DNA of 64,000 nucleotides, from NCBI RefSeq assembly GCF_001715975.1, contig NZ_MARB01000007.1, positions 1 through 64,000 on the forward strand. Direction: 5' to 3'. Below are positions 2,788-43,518 of the stretch, one piece after another. The notes beneath the pieces are model-generated. The model worked only from the letters and a program-made list of their open reading frames with translations, did not search any database and was not told the DNA's origin. The stretch is from Candidatus Thiodiazotropha endolucinida (GTDB taxonomy: Bacteria; Pseudomonadota; Gammaproteobacteria; Chromatiales; Chromatiaceae). A program made the position numbers and the translations under genes. Position 1 is the stretch's first letter. Every line of letters begins with the position of its first letter.

Positions 2788-4113
2788 ATGATCAGACGCT
2801 TCGCCATTCACAACCATGTAAAAAACATGGTCAATATCAACCCGGGTGAATATGGTGCGGTAATCTGGTCCTTTGTCTATTTTTTCTCGTTGCTCAGCAG
2901 TTACTACATAATGCGCCCGATCCGCGACGAGATGGGAGTGATAGCGGGGGTAGATAAATTGCAATGGCTGTTCACAGCCACCTTTATCGTCATGCTGCTG
3001 GCAGTGCCACTGTTTGGTTATGTGACATCACATCTGCAACGCAAACTATTTCTACCCTACATCTACTATTTTTTTATCGTCAATATTCTACTCTTCTATC
3101 TGCTTTTCGAATCCGGTTTTTCACAGATACTTACTGCCCGGATCTTTTTCGTCTGGTTGAGTGTCTTTAATCTGTTTGTTGTCTCGGTCTTCTGGAGCTT
3201 TATGACCGATCTGTTCAAAAATGAACAGGCAAGGCGGTTGTTTGCCGTAATCGCCACAGGAGGAACTATCGGCGCGATTACGGGACCACTCTTGACAACC
3301 TTGCTGGTTCAATCTATCGGCAATGCATCAATGCTATTGATATCGGCCGGACTGCTTGGTCTATCTATCATCAGCATTTATCGGCTGATCGCCTGGCAAC
3401 GTACTCAGCATGAAATCTATGAACCTCATCGACACGATGACAAGCCGCTGGGAGGAGCAATACTGGACGGCATTCGCCTTGCTCTCTCCTCCCCCTACTT
3501 GTTGGGAATCTGCCTGTTGATGCTTTTGTTTACGCTGCTCTCCACATTTCTCTATTTTCAACAGGCACAGATCGTCAAAGATGCATTTTCCGACTCGGAA
3601 ACACGTACATCTGTTTTTGCTGCGATCGATCTCAGCGTGAATCTGCTTACTCTATTGTTACAGACCTTTGTGACTTCACGCCTGGTGAAGGGGGTTGGCC
3701 TGGGTATTACATTGGCTTTGATCCCTCTGCTACTTGCTTTCGGCTTTCTATTGTTGGGATTCTATCCGACACTACCGGTTTTGATCGCTGTTCAAGTAAT
3801 GAGGCGGGCGGGAAATTACGCCATTATGCGACCGGCACGCGAGATGCTGTATGTAGTCCTTAGTCGGGAAGAGAAATATAAGGCAAAGAATTTTATCGAT
3901 ACCGTAGTCTATCGCGGTGGGGATGCCGTCAGCTCCTGGCTCTATGCAGGTCTTAAATCGGTCGGCTTCACGCTCTCCAGCATCGCCTGGATCGCTGTAC
4001 CGATATCCCTGTTTTGGGCATGGATTGCATACAGATTGGGTCGGCGGCAAACTATTATGGCGAATGGACAACACGCAACTTCTGCAGGAGGAGGCTATGA
4101 ATGGATCAGATAA
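2788..4113 (+). CDS. Multipass transporter resembling NTP/NDP antiporter (MFS-like)
   Basis: A 441-residue integral membrane protein with roughly 12 hydrophobic segments. The N-terminal pattern (YYIMRPIRDEMG, then an 'LFAVIATGGTIGAITGP' helix) is that of the bacterial MFS-like proteins grouped with ATP:ADP antiporters (TlcC/AAA family). In free-living bacteria these homologues have no assigned substrate, so nucleotide exchange is only a possibility. Its last 17 bases overlap the start of the aldo/keto reductase, whose Shine-Dalgarno AGGAGGAGG lies inside this gene, so the two are translationally linked. Confidence 0.72.
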   Translation: MIRRFAIHNHVKNMVNINPGEYGAVIWSFVYFFSLLSSYYIMRPIRDEMGVIAGVDKLQWLFTATFIVMLLAVPLFGYVTSHLQRKLFLPYIYYFFIVNILLFYLLFESGFSQILTARIFFVWLSVFNLFVVSVFWSFMTDLFKNEQARRLFAVIATGGTIGAITGPLLTTLLVQSIGNASMLLISAGLLGLSIISIYRLIAWQRTQHEIYEPHRHDDKPLGGAILDGIRLALSSPYLLGICLLMLLFTLLSTFLYFQQAQIVKDAFSDSETRTSVFAAIDLSVNLLTLLLQTFVTSRLVKGVGLGITLALIPLLLAFGFLLLGFYPTLPVLIAVQVMRRAGNYAIMRPAREMLYVVLSREEKYKAKNFIDTVVYRGGDAVSSWLYAGLKSVGFTLSSIAWIAVPISLFWAWIAYRLGRRQTIMANGQHATSAGGGYEWIR

Positions 4114-6204: not shown

Positions 6205-6404
6205 ATCGACTTCAATCAATTCTCTTTTTTTAGTTACCTTTAAGAGGTTCTCAGCCAAAATACCTTAATTTTATCAGGTTTAATTTTCACATCAGGTAAG
6301 GCCTGGACAATTAACTGGGGTTTGGAAATCATGTGGTCATTTAGTTGTTTTGATTTCACCCATAATTATATACACAGCGTTTCGTTAATTCTCGCAAATA
6401 TTAG

Positions 6405-6636
6405 CTAGGGCCTGTTAACACTAATCCAATACGCCCTGCTGGGGCTGTTTTTGTGCCCAGCAAGGCAGAATGAGCGAGGTGTAGTCATTCTACATGAGCG
6501 AATGATAACGCAGCTGGGGGCGAAAACAGCCCCAGCCCTTGGGGTGCGCCCCGAAGGAAGTGCCCTTGGGGTGCGCCTTGATTGGCGCTTTTTCAGGCAC
6601 AACAGGGCGCATTGGATTAGTGTTAACAGGCCCTAG
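6405..6636. repeat. Complete MITE-like element (copy B)
   Basis: A 232-bp element with inverted ends: CTA then GGGCCTGTTAACACTAATCC on the left and its exact reverse complement followed by TAG on the right. Inner inverted stretches extend the match (ATACGCCCTG against CAGGGCGCAT). It encodes no plausible protein. The flanks read C-TA-GGGCC...GGCCC-TA-G, consistent with insertion at CTAG with a TA duplication, as for IS630/Tc1-like or some IS5-group transposons; no transposase lies in the window. The 600-base gap between the diguanylate cyclase and the NUDIX gene is filled by this element and an AT-rich stretch (6637-6805). Confidence 0.85.
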
Positions 6637-6728
6637 CGAACCTATCAGTTTCGGGTATGCAATGAGTGCCTACTTGCATCCCGATATTGTAATGGGTTGT
6701 GAACGGCCGGATAAATAATTAACTGCAT

Positions 6729-6805: not shown

Positions 6806-7294
6806 ATGAATGACCAACCACAAAAAAAAGGGCTCGAACCGAACATCCGTAATGCCGTGCGCGCTGTGATCGTACGTGATCATGCGGTATTGATGCAGAA
6901 GAAATGGGCGCAACAGCGCGGTACCTGGTACACCCTTCCCGGTGGAGGTCAGGATGTGCACGAGACCCTGGTCCAGGCACTGGTGCGTGAATGCGAGGAG
7001 GAGATCGGCGCCACCGTGGAGATCGAGAGCCTGCTCGCCATTGCCGATTTCTACAAACAGCGCGATACTGCCTACCCTTCGGTGCGGCATCTGGTTGAGT
7101 TTCTGTTCGGCTGCTCCCTGCCGGCAAGCTATCAACCCGCATCGGGTCACCATCCCGACAAACATCAGATCGATGTGGTGTGGGTGCCCTTTGCCGATAT
7201 CCTCAACCATGAGATCTTCCCCAAAGGATTGGCACCCCATCTACCCGGTCTAGCGCAAGCGACGACACCGACATATCTGGGAGTCATCGACTGA
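6806..7294 (+). CDS. NUDIX hydrolase
   Basis: A 162-residue single-domain protein. The Nudix box is complete (GGGQDVHETLVQALVRECEE followed by EIGA: GxxxxxE, then REcEEeiG). The family cleaves nucleoside diphosphate-X or other pyrophosphate bonds with Mg2+; the AVRAVIVRDHAVLMQKK start is typical of ADP-ribose/NTP pyrophosphatase-like members, but no substrate can be named. It is the first gene of a tightly packed run: the next ATG starts one base after its stop. The ATG at 6806 has only a weak, distant AAAGGTGG upstream. Its position suggests it acts on the same small molecule as the kinases and phosphatases that follow. Confidence 0.88.
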   Translation: MNDQPQKKGLEPNIRNAVRAVIVRDHAVLMQKKWAQQRGTWYTLPGGGQDVHETLVQALVRECEEEIGATVEIESLLAIADFYKQRDTAYPSVRHLVEFLFGCSLPASYQPASGHHPDKHQIDVVWVPFADILNHEIFPKGLAPHLPGLAQATTPTYLGVID

Positions 7295-7295
7295 C

Positions 7296-8933
7296 ATGCC
7301 CCTCGCCAAAAGCATCCAGGAAAACCTTCATTTTCTGCTAACCGAGACCACCACCCACCTCTCCCTGCTGGAGGATTATCTGACCCTGCCTACGGTAACC
7401 ATCCCCAGCCGGCTGCTGGACCGTCAGGGGTATGTGGAAAATCTGAAGCTGAGCATCCATAACCACTGTTTGCGGGAGATGTCTTCATCCCGCGGACAAG
7501 ATGCTGATTACCAGTTATTGAGATCGGTGGAGGTGATCGCCAGCCAGCTGGAGCGGGTTGTGGAGCTTTGCCGGGATGCGGTGATGCAGAGCGCCCATGT
7601 TCAACATCGGGGTATGCTGAGGGTGAAGGATTTCCTTAAAATGATCGACCGGGTCAGCAATGGGCTGGAGTTGATCGAACCCGCTTTGTCGGCAAAGGAT
7701 ACCCGCCAGGCCCTGAAGATCGGCAAGGTGGAACGACACCTGGTCGATGCCTACCAAAAACAGCTCAAACGATACTCGAGGCTGCTGAAAAAGGAGAAAC
7801 ATCCAGCGGACCGGATTTCGCTCGTCATGTTGGCGCATATTATCGAGCAGATGGGCAATGCCATGTTGCGGGTCAGCGAGGCGATCATCTCTGCGTCGAT
7901 GGGGCAGCATTTCAGTACCGACCGTTACCATGCATTCAATGCCTCGGTGACAGAGCTCAAGACGGTGAACGACATCGATAAACTGGCGTTCAAACCGATC
8001 GCAGAGACCAAATCGGGCAGCGCCATCAACGCGCTCAGCAGCGATGAAGAGGGCAGCGGCTACCACGCCATCTTCAAGGATGGCCGCAAGCGTAAGCTGA
8101 AGGAGGAGAAGCAGCGGGTCAATGATTGGCACGACATCTTTCCCGGACTGGCGCCGAAGATCCTCGCCTATCAGAAACAGGGCGATTCCGCGGCCCTGTT
8201 GATTGAGCACCTGGCGGGGCAGACCTTCGAACAGATCCTGCTTGACGGTTCGGATGCGCTGCTTCAGCAGGCCCTGAACCATCTGACCAAGACCCTGACA
8301 CAGGTATGGCTTGAGACCAAGACCAAGAAGCCTGTCTCCGCCGGGTATATGAAACAGCTGGCGAAGCGCATGGGGGATGTGTATGCCATCCATCCCGAAT
8401 TCAGACAGCCGGCGGTTAATATCGGAGGCGCAGCGTTTCCCGCATTCGATGAACTCCTGAAGCGGATGCAACGCTTCGAGTCTGACGTCAAGGCGCCGTT
8501 TTCCGTCTACATCCACGGTGATTTCAACGTCGATAACATCATCTTCGACCCGCGGGAGAAACGTATCAATTTCATCGATCTGCACCGATCCAGCTATATG
8601 GACTATCTACAGGATGTCAGCGTCTTCATGGTCTCCAACTATCGACTGCGGGTGTTCGATCCCCGGGTCAGGCGGCGGATCATGGATCTCTGCCACGCCT
8701 TCTATCGCTTCGCCAGGGCCTTTGCCCGCAAACAGGGGGATGAGAGCTTCGAGCTGCGACTGGCGATGGGCCTGATCCGCTCCTTTGCCACATCAACCCG
8801 TTTTATTCTTGATAAATCCCTGTCGGAGCGCATGTTCTCGCGCGCCACCTACCTGATGGAGAGACTGCTCGAGAGCGAATCCAAATCCAAGCGCCCGTTT
8901 GTGGTGCCCGTAAAGGAGATATTCATTGGCTAA
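7296..8933 (+). CDS. PhoU-like helical domain fused to APH-fold phosphotransferase
   Basis: A 545-residue protein. Residues about 1-230 are all-helical with heptad-like character resembling PhoU/CHAD-type helical bundles (resemblance only). Residues about 250-530 carry an aminoglycoside-phosphotransferase-type kinase fold: Brenner motif HGDFNVDNI near residue 407 with the catalytic Asp, and the metal-binding Asp in NFIDLH near 426. It should transfer phosphate from ATP to a small molecule. Its stop overlaps the TTG start of the ATP-grasp gene by 8 bases, and the preceding NUDIX gene ends one base upstream, so it is part of one transcript. I recall genes of this type beside GAK-system loci, with no biochemical assignment. 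Confidence 0.75.
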   Translation: MPLAKSIQENLHFLLTETTTHLSLLEDYLTLPTVTIPSRLLDRQGYVENLKLSIHNHCLREMSSSRGQDADYQLLRSVEVIASQLERVVELCRDAVMQSAHVQHRGMLRVKDFLKMIDRVSNGLELIEPALSAKDTRQALKIGKVERHLVDAYQKQLKRYSRLLKKEKHPADRISLVMLAHIIEQMGNAMLRVSEAIISASMGQHFSTDRYHAFNASVTELKTVNDIDKLAFKPIAETKSGSAINALSSDEEGSGYHAIFKDGRKRKLKEEKQRVNDWHDIFPGLAPKILAYQKQGDSAALLIEHLAGQTFEQILLDGSDALLQQALNHLTKTLTQVWLETKTKKPVSAGYMKQLAKRMGDVYAIHPEFRQPAVNIGGAAFPAFDELLKRMQRFESDVKAPFSVYIHGDFNVDNIIFDPREKRINFIDLHRSSYMDYLQDVSVFMVSNYRLRVFDPRVRRRIMDLCHAFYRFARAFARKQGDESFELRLAMGLIRSFATSTRFILDKSLSERMFSRATYLMERLLESESKSKRPFVVPVKEIFIG

Positions 8934-9816
8934 ACCGAAGATCGGGGTGGTCGGCATCCCTGGAAAATGGTCCACGGAGGCCCTGGCGGACGCGGTGGAG
9001 GCGGCCACAGGCTTTCGCCTGGTGATCGACATGGCCGAGGTTTGTGCCGAACTCGACAGCGGCAGACTCGTCTATCGGGAGCATGATCTGACCCGTCTCG
9101 ATGGGATCGTGGTGAAAAAGATCAGCGAAGAGTACAGTCCCCATGTCCTGGACAGACTGGAGATGTTGCGCCAGTTGCAGCGTGCCGGGGTGCGGGTGTT
9201 CAGCAAGGTAGAGCGTATCATTCGCCTGATCGACCGTCTCAGCTGCACCCTGTCACTCTACAATGCAGATATTCCTATGCCCCCAACCCGCATCACCGAG
9301 AGCGCTGCCATCGCTGCCGATACGGTCACTGCATTTGGATCGGCTGTCTTCAAACCGCTCTATTCCACCAAGGCCAGAGGGATGACGTTGATCGATGCCG
9401 ATCAGGATCCGCAACAGCTGTGGCAACAGATCGAGGCCTTTCGGGTGGACAATCCGGTGATGTACATCCAGAAAAAGCTCGCGCTACCGGGCAGGGATCT
9501 GGGAATGGTGTTTCTCGATGGGGAATATCTCGGTAGCTACGCCCGGGTGGGGAAATCGGGGACCTGGAACACCACCATCAGGAGCGGCGGTCACTACGAG
9601 GGTTATCAGGCCGACGAGGCGTTGGTGACGCTTGCCCGCAAGGCGCAGGCAATCTTCGGTCTTGACTTTACCACTGTCGATGTGGCGGAGACCGAACAGG
9701 GGCCGGTGGTCTTCGAGGTCTCCGCATTCGGTGGTTTTCGTGGAGCGAAAGAGGGTATGGGCATCGATGTGCCATCCCGCTATGTGGCCTATATACTGGA
9801 GGAACTCGACGTATGA
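8926..9816 (+). CDS. ATP-grasp enzyme of the GAK (grasp-and-kinase) type
   Basis: A 296-residue RimK-like ATP-grasp protein. Visible features: nucleotide-binding KPLYSTKARGM, YIQKKLALPGRDLG with the conserved Arg, and a C-terminal Mg2+-site strand reading FEVSAFGGF, where most ATP-grasp ligases have ExN; Ser replaces Asn. ATP-grasp enzymes make acyl-phosphate intermediates for ligation or phosphorylate polyols, as in inositol phosphate kinases. The start is TTG at 8926, supported by AAGGAGAT five bases upstream inside the preceding gene. Its stop overlaps the next ATG (ATGA-type junction at 9813-9816). The pairing with an HprK-related kinase matches the TIGRFAM/NCBI 'GAK system' as I remember it; function unknown. 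Confidence 0.78.
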   Translation: MAKPKIGVVGIPGKWSTEALADAVEAATGFRLVIDMAEVCAELDSGRLVYREHDLTRLDGIVVKKISEEYSPHVLDRLEMLRQLQRAGVRVFSKVERIIRLIDRLSCTLSLYNADIPMPPTRITESAAIAADTVTAFGSAVFKPLYSTKARGMTLIDADQDPQQLWQQIEAFRVDNPVMYIQKKLALPGRDLGMVFLDGEYLGSYARVGKSGTWNTTIRSGGHYEGYQADEALVTLARKAQAIFGLDFTTVDVAETEQGPVVFEVSAFGGFRGAKEGMGIDVPSRYVAYILEELDV

Positions 9817-10943
9817 ACACGCCTGCTGAATGGATTGGTGTCAGCAGTGCCGGGGATGCGGCCAAGCTGCTTATGCAAAAGGTGCAACTGTGCGGGGAGC
9901 CGTTGCAGCTGAACATAGGTGATTGTGTCCTGGTGATTCGTTCCAACAGTCAGTCGCTGCTGGATCGGTTGGCAAGTTATTTTCATCATCTGCCCAAGAC
10001 CAGGGGTCTGGCGACCATCGAAGTCACTGCGATCGAGAGCGATAAGCTCGAGACCGGTCTGCCGTTTATCGACTGGCGCCGCGAAGCGGGCAAAAGTGGA
10101 CGCAAGGATGCCTATGTGGAACTGACAGATGGCCGCCTGGTGCTCAAGGTGCGCACCGGCATGCTGTTTCTGCAGAGCGAGCAGTGGCGCATCGCGGTCG
10201 GGCCTTGTGAGGAATATGACAACCAGCTGATCAATTTCATCAATTCGCAGGTAATGAACTGGCTGCAGCAGCGGGAGTGGTTGATCTGTCACGCCGCCGG
10301 CTTGATCCTGAATAATCATGCGATCGCCATGGCCGGATTTTCCGGGGGTGGCAAGTCGACCCTGATGCTGCATCTGATGGAACACCCGAAGAGTCGCTAT
10401 CTGACCAATGACCGGCTCTTCCTGCGACGTCGGGACGTCGGGGTGGAGGCGGTGGGCATCCCCAAGCTTCCCCGTATCAATCCAGGCACCGTGGTGAACA
10501 GTCCACGGCTTTCACCGCTGATCGATGAACAGAGAAGGGAACAGCTGCTGAGGTTGCCGCACCAGGAGCTATGGGAGCTTGAAGAGAAGTTCGATGTGGA
10601 TGTAGAACGGCTGTATGGCCGCGATCGTATCGATACCTCGACACCTGTATCCTTTGCGGCGATGGTGATCCTGAACTGGAGCAGGGGTGAGCGTGCACCG
10701 GTTAAGATGACAAAGGTCGACATTGCGCAACGCAGTGAATTGCTGAATGCGGTGATGAAATCTCCAGGGCCATTCTTTCAGGATAGCCTAGGTGAGTTTA
10801 TAAGGGATGATGAACCGCTTCAGCCCGCACCTTATCTGGACCTGCTGAAGCGTGTCCCAATCTATGAGGTGACAGGTAAAATAGATTTTACCGGGTTGAA
10901 AGAGTTGTGTTTGAAACTATGGATGAGTGTTGACAGGCCCTAG
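9813..10943 (+). CDS. HprK-related kinase (GAK system, type B)
   Basis: A 376-residue protein with a P-loop GFSGGGKST (about residues 175-183) preceded by a CHAAGLIL strand. This layout is that of HPr kinase/phosphorylase-related proteins, where the loop sits at the start of a His-containing strand. The N-terminal 150 residues form an unassigned alpha/beta domain; the C-terminal third is charged. Homologues are called HprK-related kinase B and occur beside the ATP-grasp partner; no HPr or PTS gene is seen here, so a different substrate is likely. The final codons and TAG stop come from a solo MITE end (10921-10943), so the native C-terminus may have been altered. Confidence 0.78.
   Translation: MNTPAEWIGVSSAGDAAKLLMQKVQLCGEPLQLNIGDCVLVIRSNSQSLLDRLASYFHHLPKTRGLATIEVTAIESDKLETGLPFIDWRREAGKSGRKDAYVELTDGRLVLKVRTGMLFLQSEQWRIAVGPCEEYDNQLINFINSQVMNWLQQREWLICHAAGLILNNHAIAMAGFSGGGKSTLMLHLMEHPKSRYLTNDRLFLRRRDVGVEAVGIPKLPRINPGTVVNSPRLSPLIDEQRREQLLRLPHQELWELEEKFDVDVERLYGRDRIDTSTPVSFAAMVILNWSRGERAPVKMTKVDIAQRSELLNAVMKSPGPFFQDSLGEFIRDDEPLQPAPYLDLLKRVPIYEVTGKIDFTGLKELCLKLWMSVDRP
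10921..10943. repeat. Solo MITE end forming the 3' end of the HprK-like gene
   Basis: These 23 bases match the right end of the complete element at 21 positions (GGATGAGTGTTGACAGGCCC then TAG). The TAG is the stop codon of the HprK-related kinase. There is no matching left end or interior nearby. Confidence 0.65.
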
Positions 10944-10988
10944 CAAACAGACACCCAGCAACTAAGAACTGTATGAGGCAGACAGACA

Positions 10989-11954
10989 ATGACTAGAGAA
11001 TTGATGTTGCTCAGACACGGGAAGTCCGATTGGAGTCAACAGTTAGAGGATTTCAAGCGCCCGCTAAAGGATCGCGGCAAACGTGGCGCCCAACGCATGG
11101 GGGTGTGGTTGCTGCAGCAGCAGTTACAGCCCGATTATGTCATCAGTTCACCCGCAGAGCGTGCCATCGTGACTGCTCAGAAGACGGTGAAGGCCATGGG
11201 TGGCGATGCCGATGCCATCGTACAGGATCGGCGCATCTATGCCGCCAATGTGGGTGAGTTGTTGCGGGTACTCTCGGATGTGCCACCTGACGGCAAGCGG
11301 GTCATGTTGGTGGGACACAACCCGGGATTGGAGATGCTGACAGAGTATCTGCACGGTGAGCGCATCCCTCTGCCCAGTGACGGCAAACTGATTCCCACCG
11401 CAACTTTGGCGCATATTGAAATGCCGGATGACTGGATTGATCTGAAGGCAGGGGACGGTGAGCTGCTGTCCATCGCTCGCCCGAGCAGTATGGACAAGAA
11501 ATTCCCGTATCCCGATGAACATGGCACTGAGATGCGGGATCGGCCGGCCTACTACTACAAACAATCCTCGGTGATTCCTTATCGGATAGAGGAGGGCGAG
11601 GTTGAAATCCTGGTGGTCATGTCGAGTAAGCGGAAGCATTGGGTATTGCCGAAAGGGATCAGCGAACCCGCATTGAGTCTGCAGGATTCGGCAGCAAAAG
11701 AGGCCTTGGAGGAGGCAGGTGTCGAGGGCGAGGTTGCTGAAGCGCCCATAGGCGCCTATTCCTATGAAAAATGGGGCGCTGAATGCACGGTGAGTGTCTA
11801 CCCGATGAAGGTTACCCGTGAATTGCCGGAAAAAGAGTGGGAGGAGCGCCATCGCGGACGCGAGTGGCTGGCGCCTAAACAGGCGATGAAACGGGTCAAG
11901 CAGGTTGAATTGAAACCGATGATACAAGCCCTGGCCAAACAATTGAAAGGGTAG
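10989..11954 (+). CDS. SixA-type histidine phosphatase fused to a NUDIX domain
   Basis: A 321-residue fusion. Residues 1-155 are a SixA-like histidine phosphatase: LLRHGKSDW with the catalytic His, and the second His in LVGHNPGLE. Residues about 190-321 are a NUDIX domain (HWVLPKGISE, then KEALEEAGV); Lys replaces the Arg of the REUXEE core and Leu occupies the upstream Glu position. The spaced WVLPKG form resembles the diphosphoinositol/diadenosine-polyphosphate hydrolase branch. Mycobacterial MutT1 joins the same two domains in reverse order. The likely role is stepwise hydrolysis of a pyrophosphate and then a phosphate ester, or two regulatory phosphatases in one chain. Starts at ATG 10989, 45 bases after the kinase stop. 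Confidence 0.85.
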   Translation: MTRELMLLRHGKSDWSQQLEDFKRPLKDRGKRGAQRMGVWLLQQQLQPDYVISSPAERAIVTAQKTVKAMGGDADAIVQDRRIYAANVGELLRVLSDVPPDGKRVMLVGHNPGLEMLTEYLHGERIPLPSDGKLIPTATLAHIEMPDDWIDLKAGDGELLSIARPSSMDKKFPYPDEHGTEMRDRPAYYYKQSSVIPYRIEEGEVEILVVMSSKRKHWVLPKGISEPALSLQDSAAKEALEEAGVEGEVAEAPIGAYSYEKWGAECTVSVYPMKVTRELPEKEWEERHRGREWLAPKQAMKRVKQVELKPMIQALAKQLKG

Positions 11955-12012
11955 GTCGTCAAACGCATGGTCTTGCTCAACGAACACCCTCTGTCTTGTA
12001 TGGCGCTGAGTC

Positions 12013-12717
12013 GTGGCTAGATTGATAGCCGCCATATTGCGTCATGGCGAGTATCATCAACTGCCTGATACCCCGAGTGCACTGCAACCCTATCCCTTGA
12101 CGGGGGTTGGGGCAGAGCAGGCAGAGCGCTCGGTAACCCTGATTCAGGGTGTCCTCGAAATGTTCAAATGGCGGCTGCATCCGGTAATCGACAGTTCGCG
12201 CTTGTTGCGTGGTTGGCAGACCGCTGAAATGATTCGCAAGGGATTGCAGATTGCAAGTCAGGATAGATTGCAAATCGAATCATACGATGCACTGGCCGAG
12301 CGTTCCCTGGGTTCAGCGGCCAACCTGTCGTTGCAACAGATAGAGTCGGTATTGCGGGACGATCCCCGATTTTCTCCGCCGCCGGCCGGTTGGAAGTCCG
12401 ACAGCCACTATCGACTACCGCTTCAGGGAGCGGAATCGCTCATGGATGCCGGCCAACGGGTGGCGGAGCACATGCAGCAGCGGCTTGTCGAACTGCAATC
12501 GCAGGTAAAGTCGGATACCGTGAAGTTGTTTGTCGGTCATGGTGCTGCCTTTCGTCATGCCGCCCACCATCTCGGTGTATTGCCATTTGATCAGATTGCG
12601 GCACTGAGTATGTATCATTGCCGGCCGGTTTTTCTCGAATGTGTGCCGGATGGACCATGGCAGCATCTGACTGGAGAGTGGAAGATCCGCTCGAAAGGTG
12701 AATCATTTGACGACTAA
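12013..12717 (+). CDS. Histidine phosphatase family protein (phosphoglycerate-mutase-like)
   Basis: A 234-residue protein with the RHG catalytic motif close to the N-terminus (ILRHGEY, His11), a mid-domain ERSLG block and the second catalytic His in FVGHGAAFRH. The fold is the branch-1 histidine phosphatase (phosphoglycerate mutase/cobalamin phosphatase type). The start is GTG 12013, as no ATG in frame exists near the RHG motif; the Shine-Dalgarno is weak. It lies 58 bases after the SixA-NUDIX gene and overlaps the next gene by 20 bases, so it belongs to the same transcript. It is the second histidine phosphatase of the cluster; the substrate is unknown but probably shared with its neighbours. 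Confidence 0.82.
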   Translation: MARLIAAILRHGEYHQLPDTPSALQPYPLTGVGAEQAERSVTLIQGVLEMFKWRLHPVIDSSRLLRGWQTAEMIRKGLQIASQDRLQIESYDALAERSLGSAANLSLQQIESVLRDDPRFSPPPAGWKSDSHYRLPLQGAESLMDAGQRVAEHMQQRLVELQSQVKSDTVKLFVGHGAAFRHAAHHLGVLPFDQIAALSMYHCRPVFLECVPDGPWQHLTGEWKIRSKGESFDD

Positions 12718-14053
12718 GAACAAAAACAGTATCGAACGTCACACCCGGTATCTGCCGGAATACAAGGGCCGGAAATGGCTTGATGTGGAATTACCCACAA
12801 ACAGTCAGCCGTGGCTCTTGGGCAGACAGCGTTCGGTTGTCAAAGAGAGGGGGCAGCGCAGTTCAACGGCGGGTCTGTTGAGAGAAGTGGTGAAACGAGG
12901 TAAATGGCAGTGGCCAAAACGCAAGCTCTACTTCTTTTCCGACCTGCATGCCGACGCGGATGCCTTGATCGCCTCTCTGGTGGCATCGGGTGGGGTGAAA
13001 AAGACAGGGAGTAAACAGCATGCGTTGAAGCTGACCTCACATGGCAAAGATGCCATTTTCGTCATCGGCGGGGACTGTTTCGACAAGGGGCCAAGCAACC
13101 TAAAACTGTTACGGTCGATACAGCAGCTGAAACAGCTGGGAGCCAAGGTAGTGCTGCTGGCGGGTAATCACGATCTGCGCATCAAGTTGGGTATTGCATC
13201 GGTGGGCATGGATCCCGATCCTCGCCACGACCACTTCTTTATACGTATGGGCAGTAAGGTCATACCCATGTTGCGTGAAATCGTCGATGAGTATCTTCAG
13301 GAGAAGGATGCATTGAAGGGTGTGCCGCCCACCCGCACCTGCCGACGCATACTCTACCCGCCGAAGCGCTGGTTTAAGGAGTTTCCGAAAATGGCGAGTT
13401 GGGTGATGCCTGATAAACGTATGGCCAGGGAGCTGAAACGTCTCAAGGAGAAGATAGACGACTTTGAATCGGACTGCGAGGCGGTAGGTCTCTCATTGCG
13501 CCATGTATATGCCGCTGTGATGAAATGGCAACAGCTGTTTATCAAGCCGAAGGGAGAATTCAGTTGGTTCTTCAAGCAAATGCAACTGGTCTACCGACAA
13601 GGCTCTTTTCTTTTTGTCCACGCAGGTATAGATGACAGGATGGCGAAACTGATCGAGCGTAAAGGCATCAAGTACATCAACATGGAGTTCAGGGACAGTG
13701 TCGAAGATGAGATTTTTGAATTTTACTATGGACCAATGGCCAATCTGATTCGTACAAAATACCGGGACGTGGATATGCCGCTGACACGCAAAGGGAGCGA
13801 CTTGATGCACGATGCGGGCATCCACACCATAGTCCATGGCCATGCCAACCGTCATTACGGACAAAGGATCATGCTGCGCAAGGGGATGATCCACTTTGAA
13901 TGCGACGCCACTATCGATCGCTATACTCGCATTAAGGAAGGGCTCAAAGGAAAGGGTGCCGCAGTGACCATCTTTCACCCAAAACAGCTTGTGATGGGTA
14001 TCAGTACTGACTATCCGCATATCAAGGTGTTCGATTATAAATCATTTACATAG
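12698..14053 (+). CDS. Calcineurin-like metallophosphoesterase
   Basis: A 451-residue protein with the full set of metallophosphoesterase motifs: FSDLHAD (about residue 81), GGDCFDKG (about 124), LAGNHD (about 155), VHAG (about 307) and VHGHAN (about 378), giving a dinuclear metal site. A long helical insert lies between GNHD and the last two His motifs. It resembles serine/threonine-phosphatase or Ap4A-hydrolase-like enzymes more than nucleases. The start is either GTG 12698 (used) or TTG 12707, the latter having AAAGGTG at good spacing. It overlaps the preceding gene. It is another hydrolase in a cluster dominated by phosphate-transfer and phosphate-removal enzymes. Confidence 0.82.
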   Translation: MNHLTTKNKNSIERHTRYLPEYKGRKWLDVELPTNSQPWLLGRQRSVVKERGQRSSTAGLLREVVKRGKWQWPKRKLYFFSDLHADADALIASLVASGGVKKTGSKQHALKLTSHGKDAIFVIGGDCFDKGPSNLKLLRSIQQLKQLGAKVVLLAGNHDLRIKLGIASVGMDPDPRHDHFFIRMGSKVIPMLREIVDEYLQEKDALKGVPPTRTCRRILYPPKRWFKEFPKMASWVMPDKRMARELKRLKEKIDDFESDCEAVGLSLRHVYAAVMKWQQLFIKPKGEFSWFFKQMQLVYRQGSFLFVHAGIDDRMAKLIERKGIKYINMEFRDSVEDEIFEFYYGPMANLIRTKYRDVDMPLTRKGSDLMHDAGIHTIVHGHANRHYGQRIMLRKGMIHFECDATIDRYTRIKEGLKGKGAAVTIFHPKQLVMGISTDYPHIKVFDYKSFT

Positions 14054-14103
14054 GTAATCTCTGAGCCGCCTATGCTTAATCGATGTAGAGTTGGGAAATA
14101 ATC

Positions 14104-14379
14104 ATGAGACAGGGTAAGAAAAACTTCCGTCATGAATCGTTGCAGGATAAAGAGTCGATTCAGGCGCTTCTAAAGGCGATCTCTCAAGGGATTGCAAAAG
14201 GTAAACTGACCCTCAGCGATGAGGATGGCGAGATGGTTATGCAGCCAAATGGACTGCTGCAGTTGAAAGTCGCCGCCACTCAGGATGAGGAACGGCATCG
14301 CATTAATCTACGCATTACCTGGCAGGTCGAAACGGACAGGCCGAAAAAGAGCAAGAATTTAAAGGTCAAAGTGAAATAG
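14104..14379 (+). CDS. amphi-Trp domain protein
   Basis: A 91-residue protein opening with FRHESLQDKESI and containing IAKGKLTLSDEDGEM and LRITW, the pattern I recall for the amphi-Trp domain (small amphipathic domain ending in Trp), a family repeatedly found with GAK-system genes. No catalytic residues are evident. It has a basic, lysine-rich C-terminal tail (KKSKNLKVKVK) and could bind nucleic acid or an anionic polymer such as polyphosphate; that is conjecture. Its stop is directly followed by the pncC start codon with no gap, and it begins 50 bases after the metallophosphoesterase. Confidence 0.8.
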   Translation: MRQGKKNFRHESLQDKESIQALLKAISQGIAKGKLTLSDEDGEMVMQPNGLLQLKVAATQDEERHRINLRITWQVETDRPKKSKNLKVKVK

Positions 14380-14895
14380 ATGGATACTGCATCGGCTCAA
14401 GCCGTTGAAGAGCTGACTGAAGTATGTGCCGGCAGGCTGCGCCAACAGGGTTATCGTTTGGTTGTCGCCGAGTCCTGCACCGGTGGATGGCTTGCCAAGA
14501 TATTGACCGATCTGCCCGGGAGCAGCGATTGGTTCGACCGCGGATTTGTGACCTACAGCAATCAGTCGAAACAGACAATGTTGGGCGTCTCGTCCACAAC
14601 CCTGCAACAATCCGGTGCGGTAAGCGAAGCCTGTGTCCTGGAGATGACGCAAGGAGCATTGACTGAAAGCGGTGCCGACGTGGCAGTGGCAATCAGCGGG
14701 ATTGCCGGGCCCGGTGGCGGCAGCAAGGAAAAGCCGGTGGGAACCGTCTGCTTCGCCTGGCAGGTCAAGGGTAGCGAGGGGATGGCCCAGCGGCACTGTT
14801 TCAATGGTGATCGCAACCAGGTGCGTTGGCAGGCGGTGGTCTACGCTTTACAACAACTTGAGGGAATACTGAGTGCGTCTCGCACCTCCATTTGA
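14380..14895 (+). CDS. pncC: Nicotinamide-nucleotide amidohydrolase PncC (CinA C-terminal family)
   Basis: A 171-residue stand-alone CinA C-terminal domain. Typical motifs are VAESCTGGWLA near the N-terminus (with the nucleophilic Ser), then GFVTYSNQSK, SGIAGPGGGSKEKPVGTV. The family deamidates nicotinamide mononucleotide to nicotinate mononucleotide in NAD salvage. The length matches E. coli PncC rather than full CinA. It abuts the amphi-Trp gene directly, so it may be transcribed with the phosphate-enzyme run, although pncC followed by thpR is a common housekeeping arrangement, often continuing with recA (not present here). Confidence 0.93.
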   Translation: MDTASAQAVEELTEVCAGRLRQQGYRLVVAESCTGGWLAKILTDLPGSSDWFDRGFVTYSNQSKQTMLGVSSTTLQQSGAVSEACVLEMTQGALTESGADVAVAISGIAGPGGGSKEKPVGTVCFAWQVKGSEGMAQRHCFNGDRNQVRWQAVVYALQQLEGILSASRTSI

Positions 14896-15045
14896 TTACT
14901 TTGGTGGGGCTCTGTTTCAACCATCACGGCTAATAAGGAGAGTCACTCTAAAGCTCGAGTATATAGCTAGCGGCATCTCTATCGTTTCGTGACTGAATGG
15001 AGCATGGATTCAATAGCAGAGTGAGCGAGGTAATCAGACTGAGTG

Positions 15046-15567
15046 ATGAGTGAGGAGCGTTATTTCTTTGCCCTATGGCCGGACGAGACGGTACGGTATC
15101 GCCTGAGTACCCTGGCGCATACATCCGAGCCGGGAGAAGGGCGCCGTCATAATGCAAAAGATCTGCATATGACCCTGGTCTTTCTCGGTCAGATAGCGCC
15201 ATCCCAAAAGCGCTGTATCGAAGATGTTGCCGATGGTATCAGGGGGGCGCCGATCGAGTTGTCGATTGATCGTACCGGCTATTGGTCGAGACCCAGGATA
15301 TTCTGGGCCTCACCGGGAGAGACGCCCCCAGCGCTCAGCCAACTGGTTGTGGATTTGAACAATGGCCTGACCGGTTGTGGACACGAACCGGAGGAACGTA
15401 GTTATAAACCCCATGTCACCCTTTACAGGAAGGCGCGCCGGGTTGTCCCGCAACAACTGGCGGAGCCTATTGTCTGGCAGGTGAACGAGTTTGTCTTGGC
15501 GTCTTCGGCGAACCCGGGTTCATCCGGGACACGTTATCAGGTGTTGCGGCGCTGGGCACTGGGATAG
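15046..15567 (+). CDS. thpR: RNA 2',3'-cyclic phosphodiesterase
   Basis: A 173-residue 2H-phosphoesterase. Both HxT motifs are present: HMTLVFLG about residue 42 and HVTLYRKA about residue 123. It opens cyclic phosphates at RNA ends and belongs to the LigT/ThpR group. The frame also has a GTG immediately before (15043), but ATG 15046 gives the usual family N-terminus (RYFFALWPD). It follows pncC after a 150-base gap with no recognised signal. Confidence 0.92.
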   Translation: MSEERYFFALWPDETVRYRLSTLAHTSEPGEGRRHNAKDLHMTLVFLGQIAPSQKRCIEDVADGIRGAPIELSIDRTGYWSRPRIFWASPGETPPALSQLVVDLNNGLTGCGHEPEERSYKPHVTLYRKARRVVPQQLAEPIVWQVNEFVLASSANPGSSGTRYQVLRRWALG

Positions 15568-43248: not shown

Positions 43249-43518
43249 CTAGGGCCTGTTAACACTAATCCAATGCGCCCTGTTGTGCCTGAAAAAGCGC
43301 CAATCAAGGCGCGAGGAGAGAAGTTTGGTTATTCCAAATGAACGACGAGCAACGCCGAGTGGCGCTTTTTCAGGCGCAACCCGAAGGGCTGGGGCTGTTT
43401 TCGCCCCCAGCGGCGTTATCTTCGCTCATGTAGAATAACTACACTACGCTCATTCTGCCTTGCTGGGCACGAAAACAGCCCCAGCAGGGCGCATTGGATT
43501 AGTGTTAACAGGCCCTAG
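43249..43518. repeat. Complete MITE-like element (copy C, inverted relative to copy B)
   Basis: A 270-bp element with ends identical to those of copy B (GGGCCTGTTAACACTAATCC and its reverse complement, flanked by CTA and TAG). The interior matches the reverse complement of copy B (GCTCATTCTGCCTTGCTGGG) plus about 45 extra bases (43313-43360). It sits between coaBC and algC. The rest of the gap, 43519-43723, shows no gene or recognised signal apart from the algC Shine-Dalgarno. Confidence 0.85.

Follow-up and report, generated by a model that had tools for sequence, protein, structure and literature searches.

What is the dense run of phosphate-handling genes at positions 6806 to 14379 of the window (the whole 64,000-nucleotide stretch of DNA analyzed here) from the clam symbiont Candidatus Thiodiazotropha endolucinida, and what might it do? 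The locus is a real cluster, a tightly conserved GAK operon of eight genes on one strand (Table 1). An initial reading of the sequence only had counted nine genes; eight are found within the span, while the single strand and the overlapping of genes held up, with overlaps at three gene junctions on the predicted start codons. Every domain listed in that reading was recovered in Pfam and NCBIfam searches, and its tally of two kinase folds and four phosphate-removing enzymes is correct as a matter of domain calls. Downstream of the operon in the window lie a pncC gene and then a 2',3'-CPDase (thpR) gene. Among the 81 mapped loci (from the best 80 of at least 493), a pncC-like gene adjoins GAK solely in Thiodiazotropha-type loci, to which ThpR and DAGK neighbors are likewise confined.

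Table 1. Genes of the GAK operon and the gene that follows it, with positions in the window.
Gene product	Position	Strand	Basis and remarks
NUDIX hydrolase, 162 aa	6806..7294	+	first gene of the operon; PF00293, E 1.4e-16
PhoU-APH kinase, 545 aa	7296..8933	+	PF01636, E 1.1e-11; PhoU by profile
GAK ATP-grasp enzyme, 296 aa, RimK/LysX-like	8926..9816	+	TIGR04356, 433 bits (cut-off 300)
HprK-related kinase B, 376 aa	9813..10943	+	TIGR04355, 331 bits (cut-off 200)
Fusion of SixA-like phosphohistidine phosphatase domain and NUDIX domain, 321 aa	10989..11954	+	sixA, E 4.9e-14 (below curated cut-off); NUDIX, E 4e-7
Histidine phosphatase superfamily branch 1, 234 aa	12013..12717	+	PF00300, E 6.7e-13
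PPP/ApaH-type metallophosphoesterase, 451 aa	12698..14053 (start approximate)	+	PF00149, E 2.3e-8
Amphi-Trp protein, 91 aa	14104..14379	+	TIGR04354, 68.6 bits (cut-off 31)
pncC-like gene	14380-14895	same as operon	begins one base past the end of the GAK span

The assignment to the GAK system, already made in the sequence-only reading, was confirmed by HMM search, with the ATP-grasp enzyme, HprK-related kinase B and the amphi-Trp protein all passing the curated NCBIfam GAK cut-offs within one operon. The locus differs from the NCBIfam system in that it also holds the PhoU-APH kinase, the histidine phosphatase, the PPP-type phosphatase, the SixA-NUDIX fusion and the NUDIX hydrolase, and in that the CofD-like member (TIGR04357; 534 bits against a cut-off of 340) lies outside the operon in the window's genome, on contig C40 and unlinked to GAK. 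The same contig carries cytochrome-oxidase genes. NCBIfam types the ATP-grasp, HprK_rel_B and CofD_rel_GAK models as hypothetical equivalogs, with names that give no function; the XXXCH protein is another GAK family name. A literature search by system and family names found no GAK function in print.

In a phylum sample, HprK_rel_B scored over its cut-off in 14 of 398 genomes. The APH, ATP-grasp and HprK genes stand in a row in 12 of the 13 that are not the window's, and in the thirteenth (L026) the contig begins just before HprK. In a species-level genome collection the GAK ATP-grasp was confirmed in at least 493 stretches, and the best 80 of these, from Gamma- and Alphaproteobacteria and two planctomycetes, were compared; because the loci are the best 80 of at least 493, near relatives are over-represented, and 15 of the 80 (L053-L067) are Thiodiazotropha or close kin. 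Flanks sufficient for presence counts were available for 44 of the 81 mapped loci, 11 of the 44 being Thiodiazotropha-type kin or the window. Each of the eight operon genes recurs in 35-44 of these 44 loci: amphi-Trp is nearly constant (42), SixA-NUDIX (39) is missing from some lineages and NUDIX (35) is optional. The order NUDIX-APH-GRASP-HPRK-SIXN-HP-MPE-AMPHI was observed in 34 of the 81 loci, many of the others stopping at contig ends, and the APH kinase and ATP-grasp genes are adjacent in all 81 ordered loci from this best-80 set. Versions of GAK that lack SixA-NUDIX are borne on Rhodobacterales plasmids, and none of 30 pattern matches on viral contigs was a relative. Scattered homologues had been named as an outcome that would count against a system; instead, the neighborhood is conserved, and so are the catalytic motifs in the family alignments of the GAK enzymes.

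The second gene product joins a PhoU domain (approximately residues 17-221) to an APH-type kinase (approximately 228-464). The single protein scored 23.0 bits for PhoU in Pfam, just under the gathering score of 23.5, but the domain is firmly assigned by the family profile, which matched a solved PhoU at E 3.4e-12, with profile positions 17-221 corresponding to full-length PhoU. The APH motif HGDFNxDN, accompanied by D428, was present in 76 of 76 sequences.

HprK-related kinase B displays a Walker A sequence, GFSGGGKST, together with invariant H160 and D200 (73 sequences), which we take to correspond to the Walker A and catalytic Asp and His of HPr kinase. Its profile matched no HprK in the PDB, the significant matches being to ABC-type P-loops, none with an E value better than 0.0045. 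The amphi-Trp protein carries an N-terminal motif, F-x-H-x-S-L-Q-D, in the GAK-linked rows (F8 in 70/70, H10 in 67/70 and S12 in 68/70; 67 distinct sequences). By eye the motif was absent from eight GAK-unlinked sequences and, on comparison with those eight, it appears to be GAK-specific; the protein is a candidate substrate or surface protein. An HprK-type P-loop kinase encoded in one operon with a small protein of 91 residues with a conserved Ser and His is reminiscent of HPr kinase/HPr and of SixA/NPr. Note, however, that HprK_rel_B gave no HprK structure match by sequence, that amphi-Trp is likened to HPr purely by analogy, and that Ser12 is not universal, being replaced by Ala in two genomes (G194 and G210) that both keep HprK. 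By Pfam and NCBIfam matches, none of the eight operon genes encodes a PTS component. SixA is described as dephosphorylating NPr (PMC7948535), and the SixA residues of the fusion protein are conserved at about 0.9 (62 sequences). A reading in which the SixA domain acts on amphi-Trp His10 is weakened because the plasmid copies without SixA-NUDIX retain His10.

The suggestion of polyphosphate handling, also made in the sequence-only reading, is supported indirectly by the PhoU domain and by CHAD, CHAD-ParA and Na/Pi genes lying nearby in several lineages. CHAD is reported to bind polyphosphate and to localize to granules, and stand-alone CHAD genes are said there to lie often within polyphosphate operons (PMC6537752). 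Among the best 80 of at least 493 loci, fetched regardless of CHAD, a CHAD gene was located within 3 kb of GAK in eight, six of which have it adjoining a ParA ATPase gene; the CHAD-carrying loci are partly related, four of them (L071, L076, L081 and L102) having a common gene order. In a further genome (G168), CHAD and ParA are situated inside the cluster, between the metallophosphoesterase and amphi-Trp genes and on the same strand, and in the phylum sample 2 of 14 GAK genomes have CHAD no more than 7 kb away from GAK. Under a rate model with 0.65 CHAD copies per genome (an estimate) and with loci assumed to be independent, although they are not, at least 10 CHAD-near loci in 90 would arise by chance with a probability of ~ 2e-11; the loci really examined numbered 89, and two of the 10 (L175 and L176) had been fetched on account of a CHAD gene already noted near GAK. 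Adjacent CHAD-ParA pairs, matched by reading two listings, were present in 4/14 genomes with GAK vs 3/384 without (p = 3e-5, listed places only), and in 2/12 vs 3/384 (p = 0.008) once the two genomes that had suggested the test were removed. The place of CHAD is not listed for six GAK-negative genomes (G056, G083, G129, G161, G245 and G360), and if all six had pairs the values would be p = 6e-4 and 0.04. The mere presence of CHAD in a genome is not enriched with GAK (8/14 vs 188/384, p = 0.37), so co-occurrence by presence was rejected and the link between CHAD and GAK rests on position. No CHAD gene was observed in 72 of the best 80 of at least 493 loci within the DNA examined, in which many contigs are cut. 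Unlike the CHAD-protein polyphosphate operons, the window's contig (C7) carries no CHAD gene; a CHAD-ParA pair is present on a separate contig (C13) of the same genome. Na/Pi cotransporter genes lie near GAK in 12 of the best 80 of at least 493 loci, and in the flanks examined around the plasmid copies without SixA-NUDIX there was neither a CHAD gene nor a ParA of the CHAD-linked type nor a Na/Pi gene. A Pho-box scan gave no clear signal (mean 9.34 of 14 matches vs 8.93 expected, with 3 of 71 loci reaching 12), and a whole-word search of PMC9239181 did not return ParA.

For the remaining flanks a census was drawn up with one ORF from each cluster, 248 in total, all of them 170 aa or longer and no more than 7 kb from the core. 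It covered loci other than the window and those of Thiodiazotropha type, and clusters other than CHAD, Na/Pi, CNNM and the core itself. Of its 232 ORFs of up to 650 aa, 209 (114 + 95) were scanned with Pfam, and among the 25 families that head each of the two lists none matched more than three members. No polyphosphate kinase was present among the first 25 of 186 and the first 25 of 138 flank families. A LysR regulator, GGDEF/EAL proteins and an ABC transporter recur in the flanks, each cluster being identified from one or two members.

The ATP-grasp profile matched 11 distinct PDB sequences, with E 9e-19 to 3e-9 for solved RimK, LysX and relatives. Ten are of the RimK/LysX/ArgX type, a naming that is partly our assumption, the name ArgX included, and one is a weak match annotated 'ATP-grasp domain-containing protein'. 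By these matches the GAK enzyme is RimK/LysX-like and not inositol-kinase-like. After its own model, the best scores were for MptN (141.5 bits) and the RimK family (92.2 bits, E 3.4e-26, curated cut-off 143.4), both below cut-off. The enzyme differs from the RimK/LysX/ArgX/MptN ligases in a glycine loop bearing Lys and Arg (KPLYSTKARGM) and in reading EVS, with Ser266 in 81 of 81 GAK sequences (from the best 80 of at least 493), where the 15 other RimK-type proteins compared all have Asn (EVN/EIN). We take this E-x-N to be the metal motif of the RimK family.

One interpretation of these data is a small-molecule pathway, in which the CofD-like transferase, the two kinases and a RimK/MptN/CofF-like ligase would make a metabolite or cofactor that carries phosphate and an amino-acid tail, the latter added much as in F420 or tetrahydromethanopterin, and the phosphatases would process or recycle the product. 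The MptN and RimK scores favor it, as do the co-occurrence of CofD_rel_GAK with GAK (5/14 vs 1/384 genomes, p = 1.5e-7; 17 of the 44 well-flanked loci, mostly divergent and upstream) and the pairing of APH and ATP-grasp genes in two loci where no other core gene was observed, one of them (L125) well flanked. We nevertheless consider it rather unlikely: 27 of the 44 loci are without the CofD-like gene, which is unlinked in the window's genome, the metal-site Asn has become Ser, and PhoU, the CHAD-ParA and Na/Pi neighbors and the near-constant amphi-Trp would go unexplained. The domain mix also resembles PPIP5K plus DIPP, and the sequence-only reading had drawn the parallel with inositol-pyrophosphate metabolism. 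There the ATP-grasp enzyme itself would be the phosphate-adding kinase, with the histidine phosphatase and NUDIX as erasers, and NUDIX and ApaH-like enzymes are reported to include polyphosphatases (PMC8220851, PMC6522730). This parallel is not supported, and such a cycle is very unlikely: the profile matched RimK/LysX/ArgX-type ligases and no inositol-phosphate kinase among the 11 PDB sequences, and both NUDIX and SixA-NUDIX are dispensable.

The candidate erasers are themselves well conserved, in the Nudix-box residues of the NUDIX hydrolase (54 sequences), in R10, H11 and H176 of the histidine phosphatase (68 of 68 sequences) and in the metal-motif residues of the metallophosphoesterase, which are invariant (57 sequences; GGDCFDKGP). 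The last of these resembles ALPHs, such as the yeast endopolyphosphatase Ppn2, in its PPP-type motifs, in a Lys within motif 2 and in a best PDB match to ApaH, which is weak (E 9e-4). In ALPHs, however, a neutral residue is described as replacing the second Asp of motif 2 (PMC8220851), an Asp that the GAK enzyme keeps in 57 of 57 sequences. Housekeeping clean-up of damaged or signaling nucleotides (oxidized NTPs, ApnA, capped RNA) by the NUDIX, ApaH-like and histidine phosphatases would suit these domains and the pncC and 2',3'-CPDase genes downstream in the window, but it is very unlikely, as it makes the ligase, HprK and amphi-Trp superfluous, those neighbors are, among the 81 mapped loci, peculiar to the Thiodiazotropha type and GAK has a patchy distribution (14 of 398 genomes).

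Our own reading, a tentative one, is of a GAK system present here in full and working as a portable module that writes and erases, tied to inorganic phosphate and, most probably, to stores of polyphosphate. The loci themselves show the gene content, the conserved order, the catalytic motifs, the PhoU domain, the affinity of the ligase and the CHAD/ParA/Na-Pi neighborhood; phosphate or polyphosphate is the physiological setting that we infer, and the order of steps, with amphi-Trp Ser12 as phosphorylation site, is a guess. The PhoU domain would sense phosphate status or relay it to the fused APH-type kinase, and this kinase and the RimK-like ligase could work on a single target, one after the other. 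HprK-related kinase B may phosphorylate a protein hydroxyl, the candidate, by analogy with HprK/HPr, being Ser12 of amphi-Trp. Phosphates would be stripped by the histidine phosphatase and the PPP-type metallophosphatase, together with SixA-NUDIX and NUDIX where these are present, and CHAD-ParA partners, where co-encoded, might tie the machinery to polyphosphate granules. In its boldest form, which is unlikely to be right as it stands, GAK would be an uncharacterized control of polyphosphate granules: marks on amphi-Trp would be written by a phosphate-gated kinase, an HPr-type kinase and an ATP-grasp ligase whose metal site is altered, and erased by two to four phosphatases, and amphi-Trp would, together with CHAD and the ParA ATPase, control how granules are used or where they lie.

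Given the CHAD-ParA and phosphate-transport neighborhood, a role of GAK in polyphosphate handling can now be put to the test, and cultured carriers usable for genetics are at hand in Thalassospira, Halomonas, Roseibium and Marinobacterium.

Gene calling resolved a cluster of eight genes on one strand, which, by Pfam and NCBIfam assignment, encode the proteins listed in the table. The sequence-only reading had counted nine genes in a same-strand GAK cluster; the cluster is real, and the ninth gene (pncC-like) falls away because it starts at 14380, beyond the span proposed. The GAK identity was upheld, as three NCBIfam GAK models scored over their cut-offs. The cut-off of the fourth, CofD_rel_GAK, was passed by a gene on another contig of the same genome (C40), in a region that also has cytochrome oxidase genes.

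Positions of the operon, its surroundings and features in other loci (L handles)
Feature	Location	Remarks
GAK operon	window 6806-14379	NUDIX, PhoU-APH kinase, ATP-grasp, HprK-related kinase B, SixA-NUDIX, histidine phosphatase, metallophosphoesterase, amphi-Trp
pncC-like amidase and 2',3'-cyclic phosphodiesterase genes	window 14380-15567	operon's strand, directly downstream
MFS-type transporter	window 2788-4113	TLC ATP/ADP transporter family a weaker match
Inverted-arm element, 240 bases	window 6401-6640	just upstream of operon
Inverted-arm element, second copy	window 43249-43518 (-)	
ParA/MinD-type subfamily beside CHAD	L175 14376-15134	
ParA/MinD-type subfamily beside CHAD	L176 2446-3321	
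ParA/MinD-type subfamily beside CHAD	L071 2689-3474	
ParA/MinD-type subfamily beside CHAD	L181 8363-9166	
Family of about 190 aa	L093 14254-14823	also in L092, L112, L120

The element upstream of the operon has inverted arms of 66 nt that are 80% complementary. A search of the window's own genome produced 219 candidates, of which 40 were scored, yielding 147 matches; since many of these cover at least half its length, the element resembles a MITE-type repeat.

The GAK ATP-grasp scored over its cut-off in 23 of 56 relatives and, within the genus, in 21 of 22 genomes with the window's own counted. HprK_rel_B (HprK-related kinase B) did so in 14 of 398 genomes of the phylum. The ATP-grasp was confirmed in at least 493 stretches of genome_contigs, the best 80 of which were kept for mapping with the window. 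Gene presence was scored, using profiles built from the loci themselves, where the flanks of the ATP-grasp gene extend for at least 5 kb on its left and 7 kb on its right. This holds for 44 of the 81 loci, the window being counted, and 11 of the 44 are Thiodiazotropha-type loci or the window. The PhoU-APH kinase was found in all 44, as was the ATP-grasp, which was the query, followed by HprK (43), histidine phosphatase and amphi-Trp (42 each), metallophosphoesterase (41), SixA-NUDIX (39), NUDIX (35) and the CofD-like protein (17). The window's exact gene order was the commonest arrangement (34/81). The pncC-like and phosphodiesterase neighbours were confined to Thiodiazotropha-type loci among the 81. 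Versions that run from APH through amphi-Trp but lack SixA-NUDIX are present on plasmids of Qingshengfaniella, Tritonibacter and Pseudooceanicola; the first adds NUDIX, and the first and third a CofD-like gene. The Rhodobacterales plasmids with GAK operons (L138, L139, L140) are predicted to be non-mobilizable. A search of viral contigs yielded no relative.

Some GAK loci also encode a protein family, roughly 190 aa in length, that matched neither Pfam nor NCBIfam at E 0.001, and in L092, L093 and L112 the HprK gene follows the gene for this protein instead of the ATP-grasp gene. In one phylum-sample genome (G060, locus L135), CofD_rel_GAK was over its cut-off and HprK_rel_B was not, possibly representing a remnant or a separate use. 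Locus L071 is labelled as a Halobacteria archaeon; it is probably a mis-binned contig, because its ATP-grasp is 66% identical to that of the window and its gene order is gammaproteobacterial.

The sequence-only reading had also drawn a parallel between the domain mix, with its ATP-grasp enzyme, and eukaryotic inositol-pyrophosphate metabolism. The ATP-grasp family does not support this: the 11 distinct PDB matches to the family profile were RimK, LysX and kindred ligases, together with one further, weakly matching ATP-grasp protein, and by sequence the enzyme is a relative of ligases and not of inositol kinases. It departs from RimK/LysX-type ligases at the E-x-N motif, which reads EVS in 81/81 GAK proteins, whereas EVN or EIN stands there in 15/15 relatives outside GAK, drawn from the same genomes or related ones. 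In its glycine-rich loop a Lys is invariant and an Arg nearly so (0.98).

Alignments of 54-81 sequences per family showed that residues which we take to be catalytic are kept, namely HGDFNxDN and D428 in APH, K143 and E264 in ATP-grasp, and Walker A, H160 and D200 in HprK. The histidine phosphatase likewise keeps R10-H11 and H176, the metallophosphoesterase its metal motifs and the NUDIX protein its Nudix box. The SixA half of SixA-NUDIX is more loosely conserved (about 0.9). Judged by this conservation, the operon enzymes look active. Positions 17-221 of the APH family profile matched PhoU proteins of known structure (E 3.4e-12); the profile also matched APH(3') kinases (E 1e-4).

In a phylum sample of 299 genomes, amphi-Trp was over its cut-off in 19, with 12 matches at GAK loci and seven genomes having a copy elsewhere, as assigned by place. 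The 70 GAK-linked rows aligned (67 distinct) share F8 (70), H10 (67), S12 (68), G33 (70) and W73 (69); the GAK copies of amphi-Trp in G194 and G210 have Ala at position 12. By eye, F-x-H-x-S was absent from eight unlinked sequences, including one below the cut-off that reads FRHDG.

Genes for CHAD, a polyphosphate-binding domain, were present in 8/80 loci (L071, L076, L081, L082, L093, L102 and the planctomycete loci L105 and L132, the last detected by our own profile only), and no CHAD was found in the available DNA of the other 72. In seven of the eight, CHAD lies 0.1-3 kb from the nearest GAK gene; in L132 its frame extends to the NUDIX frame. Two further loci, L175 (genome G168) and L176 (G208), were fetched from outside the 80 for CHAD seen nearby. 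A ParA/MinD-type ATPase gene adjoins CHAD in 8/10 loci, Pfam-confirmed in four. The pair lies inside the cluster in G168, between metallophosphoesterase and amphi-Trp, and 106 bases after amphi-Trp in L082; the window's own genome has one on contig C13. CHAD alone was not enriched in GAK genomes (p = 0.37). Among the matches listed, adjacent CHAD-ParA pairs occurred in 7/398 genomes, four of them GAK-positive (p = 3e-5; p = 0.008 without the two seed genomes). Counting every GAK-negative genome with CHAD of unlisted place as having a pair puts these values at 6e-4 and 0.04, respectively. The ATPases beside CHAD form a distinct subfamily, found in GAK and non-GAK genomes, and could possibly be a positioning system for polyphosphate granules. 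Sodium/phosphate cotransporter genes lie within 6 kb in 12/80 loci, against a comparison rate of about two per genome in the window's genus, and also adjoin GAK in genome G068; CNNM/CorC-type genes were found in 10/80. Together, the neighbours point to phosphate; the missing enrichment of CHAD on its own and the 72/80 loci in which no CHAD was found speak against this.

One tentative interpretation of these data, the one we favour, is that GAK is a phosphate-linked write/erase module, in which the kinases and ligase would write and the phosphatases erase, with polyphosphate as the likely setting. A PhoU-gated APH kinase and then the RimK-like ligase would act in succession, and the HprK-type kinase would phosphorylate a protein hydroxyl. 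By analogy with HprK and HPr, and because of its GAK-specific motif and near-constant presence, amphi-Trp might be guessed to be the substrate. The best of the rival explanations, a small-molecule pathway, seems unlikely; the MptN-like character of the ligase speaks for it, as does the CofD-like partner, present in 5/14 GAK-positive versus 1/384 GAK-negative genomes. The locus itself is an unexceptional, full-length example of a catalogued, uncharacterised system, already named without an assigned function. The present analysis adds to it the system's composition, an altered motif in the ligase, a motif in amphi-Trp and the neighbourhood with CHAD-ParA and phosphate genes.
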